Source of the DNA: Thermoprotei archaeon
Lineage (GTDB): Archaea > Thermoproteota > Thermoprotei_A > Sulfolobales > Ignisphaeraceae
Length of the DNA stretch: 35,024 bases
Assembly: GCA_003661775.1 (NCBI GenBank)
Contig: QMWT01000003.1
Span: forward strand, 1-35,024
Direction: 5' to 3'
In this document: positions 11,586 to 12,855 of the stretch, in pieces
How positions within the stretch are numbered: position 1 is the first letter of the stretch
Layout of the letters: every line of letters begins with the position of its first letter
Program-made: the position numbers and the translations under genes
Notes under the pieces: model-generated
What the model saw: only the letters and a program-made list of their open reading frames with translations
Told to the model about the DNA's origin: nothing
Databases searched by the model: none

Positions 11586-11978
11586 TTACTCCAAACATTC
11601 AACGATGATGAGCCTGTCAAAGAAGCTCTTGACTTTGGCGCACTCTTCTCCACTAAGTGCTACCCTTATATGGTCGCCTCTCACCTCTATGAGCGCTTCA
11701 ATACCTTGGGCGCGTAAATTACGTCTTATTCTCTCAGCAATGTAATTGTTAAGTAGTCTTTTAATTGCGTCATCAAGAGGGTTTATTCTAACCTGCACAT
11801 TCTCAATAGATAAGAAACCTTTCTTGTGCAACCTCTTCATAACTTTACGCGCAATTTTTCTAGGCATCATTATTTGAAGAACTTCTAGCGCCTCACCGAT
11901 GTTTACTATGTTTTTCTCGCCTAACACTTCTCGCAATACTACGTATGTTGCCAACTCACGCTTAGACAACCATACCAT
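11586..11978 (-). CDS. Hypothetical, possible winged-helix protein
   Basis: 130-aa ORF; N-terminal helical segment LSKRELATYVVLREVLGEKN...RKIARKVMKRLHKKGFLSIENVQVRINPL resembles wHTH. Inference only. Confidence 0.55.
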   Translation of the reverse strand: MVWLSKRELATYVVLREVLGEKNIVNIGEALEVLQIMMPRKIARKVMKRLHKKGFLSIENVQVRINPLDDAIKRLLNNYIAERIRRNLRAQGIEALIEVRGDHIRVALSGEECAKVKSFFDRLIIVECLE

Positions 11979-11990
11979 AGCAACCCCGGA

Positions 11991-12047
11991 CCTCAGCTGC
12001 CTGGTTATACATCACCACAGCTCAGTTCTTACGAGGCTCATCATGGG
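11991..12047 (-). ncRNA. Candidate C/D-box guide sRNA
   Basis: Minus strand: CCC-[C ATGATGA]-GCCTCGTAAGAA-[D' CTGA]-GCTGTG-[C' GTGATGT]-ATAACCAGGCAG-[D CTGA]-GG. Two 12-nt guides; C, D' and D match consensus and C' has one mismatch. Located in the 11978/12043 divergent intergenic region. Confidence 0.7.
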
Positions 12048-12855
12048 GATTTTTACTCGCGTGCACTTTGTGCAGTCGGGGTACTTGATTTTGAGGCTAA
12101 ACGAAGGATGCTGGTTCACTCCTATCTACGAAATTATTAAGGGTGGCGATAAACTTATCGAAGCTATCTTTGAGAAGTCAAAGACGGAGCCCATATTTAT
12201 AGCGCTCAAACCTACAATCATCCCAACCAAATTAAAAGGTCGAAGAACTGCAATCGCTATAGCTCCTCTCACTGTTATTACATGCAGTGAAAGGCTTGTT
12301 CCTAACTCTATTATTGCGACAGAGCCGCTATGGATCGACACCGCCATATTGATACCATACGCACGTAGCAGAGAAGATAATGAGTGTTTCAGCACCATCT
12401 TTGGTTTAGAGCTACCCGTAGATACTGAGTTAGGGGCTTCCTGTAACATCCTCAGATGCTCCCCTACCCCATCTATTGAAAAACTTGTGAAGTTAGCCCA
12501 GGATATGAGGAAAGGCGTTATATGCGTAGCAGATGCCGATATGCATGAAGATAAGGTTGCGATTAGAAGCGCCACTCACCCTCTGGCAAAAATATCGCTA
12601 GATCTAGTAGGAGAAAAAGCAAGCTGTGTTTGTTGCTTAGATGTAGAAGAGGCTATTCCGTGGATAGAGCCTATACTTATACATGGACAGAACGGGCATC
12701 ATTTAGTGCTGGGAGAGATTCTCTCAAACGTACTCGTGTTTCACGAAGATACAGGGAAGAAACTTCGATACATACTCTCACTATACACCTTAAGTGAGGA
12801 AATGAGCTCGACCTTAGCTAGGGTTTATACTTCCTTCCTCAAAAGAGGTTTTTAA
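12043..12855 (+). CDS. Hypothetical protein (about 270 aa; start ATG 12043 or GTG 12061)
   Basis: Long ORF (track 11899-12855); upstream part is antisense to the 11978 gene and the sRNA. No family recognised. Confidence 0.65.
   Translation: MGIFTRVHFVQSGYLILRLNEGCWFTPIYEIIKGGDKLIEAIFEKSKTEPIFIALKPTIIPTKLKGRRTAIAIAPLTVITCSERLVPNSIIATEPLWIDTAILIPYARSREDNECFSTIFGLELPVDTELGASCNILRCSPTPSIEKLVKLAQDMRKGVICVADADMHEDKVAIRSATHPLAKISLDLVGEKASCVCCLDVEEAIPWIEPILIHGQNGHHLVLGEILSNVLVFHEDTGKKLRYILSLYTLSEEMSSTLARVYTSFLKRGF

Follow-up and report, generated by a model that had tools for sequence, protein, structure and literature searches.

A conserved box C/D sRNA gene of thermophilic Thermoproteota predicted to guide ribose methylation at U34 and C17 of tRNA-Val

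Between two divergent protein genes in the stretch of Thermoprotei archaeon DNA analysed here (35,024 nt, hereafter the window), the minus strand carries a series of short motifs resembling those of archaeal box C/D RNAs. The questions raised by this locus are whether these motifs belong to a genuine guide sRNA and, if so, on which RNA it would act. The preliminary description had recognised canonical boxes with two 12-nt guides on the minus strand, and this was borne out, with all coordinates as claimed (Table 1). The strict C/D pattern has a single match in the window and no match in 400 dinucleotide shuffles (0.0 expected per window), and even the loose pattern is expected only 0.0025 times per window in the same 400 shuffles. 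Boxes C (RUGAUGA), D' (CUGA), C' (C-like) and D (CUGA) follow in the archaeal order, and the guide and spacer lengths (12, 12, and 6 nt) are as usual in archaea, where each guide has about 10-12 nt and the D'-C' spacer is short. The dinucleotides CC and GG flanking the core could form a short outer stem of a k-turn. The folding stability of the sRNA alone is no greater than that of shuffled sequences (z -0.45), as is expected of a k-turn RNA, and a simple stem-loop fold was rejected on this value. The partner methyltransferase, fibrillarin, is encoded in the source genome (G000:C2:19162-19839, E 1.1e-105).

Table 1. Coordinates of the sRNA, its parts and the adjoining genes in the window
Feature	Position	Strand	Evidence or remark
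C/D box guide sRNA	11991..12047	(-)	sequence, shuffle test, sub-threshold Rfam C/D families, conservation
sRNA box-to-box core	11993-12044	(-)	sequence
box C ATGATGA	12038..12044	(-)	sequence
D' guide GCCTCGTAAGAA, 12 nt	12026..12037	(-)	predicted to pair with tRNA-Val(UAC) anticodon loop CTTACGAGGC, N+5 = U34
box D' CTGA	12022..12025	(-)	sequence
D'-C' spacer, 6 nt	12016-12021	(-)	sequence
box C' GTGATGT	12009..12015	(-)	sequence
D guide ATAACCAGGCAG, 12 nt	11997..12008	(-)	predicted to pair with tRNA-Val D-loop GCCTGGTTA, N+5 = C17; own tRNA-Val(CAC), L015
box D CTGA	11993..11996	(-)	sequence
uncharacterised winged-helix (wHTH) protein, 130 aa (MVWLSKRE...)	11586..11978	(-)	sRNA in its leader
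divergent uncharacterised gene, 254 aa from TTG 12091	12091..12855	(+)	corrected start of the gene earlier placed at 12043
T-rich element ATTTTTA, possible TATA box of the divergent gene	12049..12055	(+)	inference; TATTTAA at the same place in G001

A scan of the locus against Rfam gave no family above the gathering threshold. At relaxed thresholds there were 13 matches, every one of them to an archaeal C/D box family and lying at approximately 11991-12048(-); the strongest were to sR9 (25.6 bits, E 0.0024) and sR2 (E 0.0019). The families sR9 (RF01312), sR2 (RF01139), and snoPyro_CD (RF00095) resemble our sRNA in boxes and length and match over the whole RNA, but below threshold, scoring 23-26 bits against gathering values of 36-45. 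At the gathering threshold neither the sRNA nor any of five tested relatives falls into an Rfam family. A search of open papers for the guide sequences as text found none.

The distribution of the sRNA was addressed at several levels. Within the same family, a homologue lies upstream of the wHTH gene. A sequence-only model built from 15 members matches 134 of the 214 genomes of the order at E<=0.01, the weakest of which may be other C/D sRNAs instead. GTAAG and CCAGGC-like guide cores were both retained in all 40 further loci that were read individually. An exact-pattern scan of 84,980 species returned 19 contigs, all from Desulfurococcales, Pyrodictiaceae, Sulfolobales, or unclassified Thermoprotei bins, and in none of the species scanned was the exact pattern present outside these archaeal groups. 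Boxes and guides are thus conserved, and the guides covary with their target (see below), as they do in archaeal C/D sRNAs. On these sequence data the minus-strand locus is a real archaeal box C/D sRNA gene, conserved across the order.

The source genome is a metagenome-assembled genome (MAG), 55% complete and without rRNA genes, and the guides were accordingly searched against its own tRNAs and against the rRNAs of relatives; tRNA positions are numbered by the standard scheme as applied in this analysis. This search, which the preliminary description had suggested, located targets of both guides, both in tRNA-Val, and gave no convincing target in the rRNA of relatives. The D guide singled out the tRNA-Val D-loop TAGCCTGGTTAGG, while the D' guide is complementary to the anticodon loop of the tRNA-Val with anticodon UAC. 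The gene for this isoacceptor was not found among the tRNAs of the 55% complete source MAG, and for this reason the D' pairing was judged on a tRNA-Val(UAC) of the same genus (L153), which is identical to the sequence expected from the D' guide. The nucleotide at N+5 is U34 for the D' guide and C17 for the D guide. A published criterion asks for at least nine consecutive Watson-Crick pairs including the N+5 nucleotide (PMC4644070); both guides reach it, with runs of 9 pairs between the D guide and the source organism's own tRNA-Val(CAC) and 10 pairs between the D' guide and the same-genus tRNA-Val(UAC). Runs of at least nine pairs spanning N+5 for both guides on one tRNA arose in only one of 20,000 shuffled guide pairs. 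Both guides are complementary to one tRNA, as expected of a double guide, and from these pairings the sRNA is very probably a double guide for Um34 and Cm17 of tRNA-Val, the methylation itself being inferred. The D' guide should be inactive on the CAC and GAC isoacceptors of tRNA-Val, because the mismatch sits at position 34; the D-loop sequence is identical among the Val isoacceptors seen in this genus. It should be noted that a second tRNA-Val(UAC) gene (L204, G012:C10:80673-80747), with the different D-loop CCTGGTTTGG, lies approximately 2 kb from a 16S rRNA gene.

The majority of archaeal C/D sRNAs act on rRNA, and by this general rule the sRNA might be chiefly rRNA-directed and its match to tRNA-Val incidental, the more so as rRNA scores within single genomes (8-9.5) equal the tRNA scores for the D guide. 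The best rRNA sites, however, which were taken from the rRNAs of relatives since the source MAG has none, vary by species and stay at the level of shuffled guides (7-9). No rRNA target better than chance or constant across species was found in the rRNAs of relatives, and an rRNA target would leave the covariation with tRNA-Val unexplained; we consider it very improbable that rRNA is the main target.

This covariation was analysed in 56 genomes carrying the sRNA, each compared with its own tRNA-Val genes. For the D guide and the D-loop the observed complementarity was reached in none of 20,000 permutations, whether free or within families. For the D' guide and positions 37-39 it was reached in 0 of 20,000 free and 79 of 20,000 within-family permutations. 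Exchange within families corrects for family and not fully for relatedness. Compensatory changes in the D-loop include C for U at 17a, matched by G for A in the guide (G018, G002), C or G for U at 20a, matched by guide G (G021) or guide C (G207), respectively, U for A at 21, matched by guide A (G148), and a CC insertion with guide GG (G178). In the anticodon loop there are C38 with guide G (G105) and, in many genomes, G37 or A37 with guide C or T. In genus g5, where the tRNA-Val D-loop is one base shorter, the D guide is gone. Both this genus and G004 have a shortened or otherwise altered D-loop, and the sequence in place of the D guide has no tRNA-Val match and is often GGGGATA-like. The pattern has its exceptions, namely a guide C opposite A37 in the Sulfolobus-type genomes G046 and G055 (L263, L264), a guide A opposite C38 in most members of family f7 and in G021, poor pairing in G195, and irregular D' boxes in G029, G039, and G036, where the N+5 count is off by one. 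Several D guides of family f2 (AGACCAGGCT) fit the D-loop of tRNA-Gly as well as or better than that of tRNA-Val, which suggests a shift of target or a double use involving tRNA-Gly. At three f2 loci (L283, L284, and L290) AGACCAGGCT-like D guides match the tRNA-Gly D-loop AGCCTGGTCT better than tRNA-Val. As a comparison of sequences, the covariation shows selection for pairing with tRNA-Val and says nothing of the chemistry.

Contact with two loops of one tRNA could also mean that the sRNA is chiefly a chaperone for folding, with methylation only secondary or not occurring, and for rRNA double guides such dual contacts have been proposed to aid folding (PMC4644070). Yet nearly all species have U34 and C17 at the two N+5 positions, and pairing there is retained, as would be expected for methylation; a chaperone as the main role appears very unlikely. 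As a double guide for methylation, the sRNA would bind L7Ae, Nop5, and fibrillarin; its D' guide would pair with the anticodon loop of tRNA-Val(UAC) and direct 2'-O-methylation of the wobble nucleotide U34, and its D guide would pair with the D-loop and direct 2'-O-methylation of C17. The two marks would make the D-loop more rigid at high temperature and tune decoding at the wobble position.

Similar pairs of modifications are known. In S. acidocaldarius tRNA-Gln(UUG), both U34 and G18 were assigned to C/D guidance and both methyls were observed (Ziesche 2004, as cited in PMC7668247). This precedent resembles the present case in that the wobble U34 and a D-loop nucleotide of a single tRNA are assigned to C/D guidance, but it concerns Gln and not Val, G18 and not C17, and other guides. 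Position 17 of S. acidocaldarius tRNAs is also described as methylated on C or A, probably as 2'-O-methyl, and some tRNA methyls as having no assigned guide (PMC7668247). The C/D box RNA in the intron of pre-tRNA-Trp, which guides Cm34 and Um39 (cited in PMC7994747), likewise has two guides for two nucleotides of one tRNA; there, however, the guide is an intron of its own target, whereas our sRNA is a separate gene adjoining the wHTH gene. As a rule tRNA-directed C/D sRNAs have one targeting guide, the tRNA-Trp intron being an exception (PMC7994747). Those of Pyrobaculum (Lui et al. 2018, cited in PMC7994747), in which the other guide has no target, share with our sRNA the box architecture and position 34 as a target. 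In contrast to them, the sRNA has both guides on the same tRNA in most lineages; the members of the family in genus g5 revert to the Pyrobaculum-like one-guide state.

Neither U34 nor C17 of tRNA-Val is named as a C/D target in the accessible open literature. The sRNA is a specific, order-wide candidate source of ribose methylation of U34 and C17 on tRNA-Val in thermophilic Thermoproteota, including the Sulfolobus-type organisms, where methyls occur at position 17 and the guides of some tRNA methyls are still unassigned. It is also a clear example of a C/D sRNA and its tRNA evolving in step, base for base, down to the loss of a guide where the target loop changed. RNA-seq detected 62 C/D sRNAs in S. 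acidocaldarius, and the homologue of our sRNA in that species is probably among them (PMC5539422).

The gene order in the window is XPB-like helicase (-), divergent gene (+), sRNA (-), wHTH gene (-), and Alba (+). The position of the sRNA just upstream of the wHTH gene on the same strand, already remarked upon in the preliminary description, was confirmed: box D and ATG 11978 are 14 nt apart, and the arrangement is conserved in relatives. The distance is 0-14 nt in family f1, and in genus g5 box D can directly adjoin the start codon (G005, G012). In the Sulfolobus-like family (f11) the two are again on one strand, the gap from the sRNA to the wHTH start being 2-10 nt in most genomes (about 140-150 nt in two), with a divergent gene and a helicase-like ORF beyond. 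The sRNA is on the wHTH strand in f9 and f10 too. Families f3 and f7 have it on the opposite strand, ahead of a divergent gene and with the wHTH gene directed away from it, and a search of approximately 600 nt around it turned up no wHTH gene in f2, f5, or f8. The sRNA has thus long been associated with the wHTH/divergent gene pair, its strand having changed over time. At many f11 loci a TATA-like stretch, read by eye, precedes box C by about 30-40 nt, a placement which suggests that sRNA and gene are co-transcribed; in the window no evident TATA-like element lies ahead of box C. The sRNA may be derived from the 5' leader of the wHTH mRNA or from a promoter of its own just upstream. At L064 and L066-L074 (genus g5 and G004) the GGGGATA that often stands in the D guide sits close before the wHTH start codon, where it might act as a Shine-Dalgarno-like element.

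Searches of Pfam and NCBIfam placed the wHTH protein in no family above cut-off, and it has no sequence relative in the PDB. Its AlphaFold2 model (pLDDT 88.6) has the H-H-H-E-E order of a winged helix followed by a long helix and a small C-terminal part, and the Foldseek matches were all weak (E 0.007 and above), with many winged-helix proteins among them. The Sul7s family (PMC8998557) was considered for this protein and set apart, by description only, on length (59 aa vs 130 aa).

The short distances to the start codon in f1 and f11, and the same-strand arrangement retained in f1, f9, f10, and f11, would also suit a C/D element that is mainly a regulatory leader, with L7Ae or the C/D proteins controlling wHTH translation through its k-turns. 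Autoregulation of L7Ae via a k-turn in its 5' UTR is established in S. acidocaldarius (PMC5539422). Such a regulator would have no need of 12-nt guides that covary with a tRNA, however, and the guides are still complementary to tRNA-Val where the sRNA is on the opposite strand (f3, f7) and where no wHTH gene was found near it (f2, f5, f8). Regulation of the wHTH leader may be an added role; that it is the main one is very unlikely. The sRNA and the wHTH gene might form a coupled unit, the leader being either excised as a tRNA-Val guide or kept on the mRNA for translation, and the deep linkage on one strand seen in four families would be a relic of it. We regard this as rather unlikely; if it were true, the supply of C/D proteins would set both the methylation of tRNA-Val and the level of a conserved DNA-binding protein. 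An sRNA overlapping the 5' end of a gene is reported to be rare (7% of cases; PMC7994747), and an sRNA placed just before a start codon and kept there across several families is a close counterpart of that arrangement.

On its other side the sRNA faces the divergent gene, and the preliminary description had it antisense to an ATG of this gene at 12043, with a possible effect on translation. Box C is indeed complementary to this ATG, which speaks for an antisense regulator of the opposite gene, but ATG 12043 is an unlikely start: in G001, of the same genus, an in-frame stop lies between the sRNA and the conserved part of the gene, and the orthologue starts at a TTG matching TTG 12091, while the G004 orthologue has an ATG at this position. 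The start of the divergent gene should therefore be TTG 12091, and since this codon lies 46 nt beyond the end of box C, the sRNA is not antisense to the start codon. The proposed effect on translation is left unsupported, and that the sRNA is an antisense regulator is extremely improbable. The T-rich element beside the sRNA (Table 1) fits the divergent gene better than the sRNA. Homology of the divergent gene between f1 and f7 or f3 is only suggestive (hhalign P 0.003-0.006). In f10 (L379, L380) the gene after the divergent gene resembles, by eye, the TYW3 wyosine methyltransferase, another tRNA modification gene. Between the sRNA and TTG 12091, the sequence GTGCACTTTGTGCAG (12061-12075, plus strand) holds a perfect 5-3-5 inverted repeat which is absent from G001 and could be an operator of the divergent promoter.
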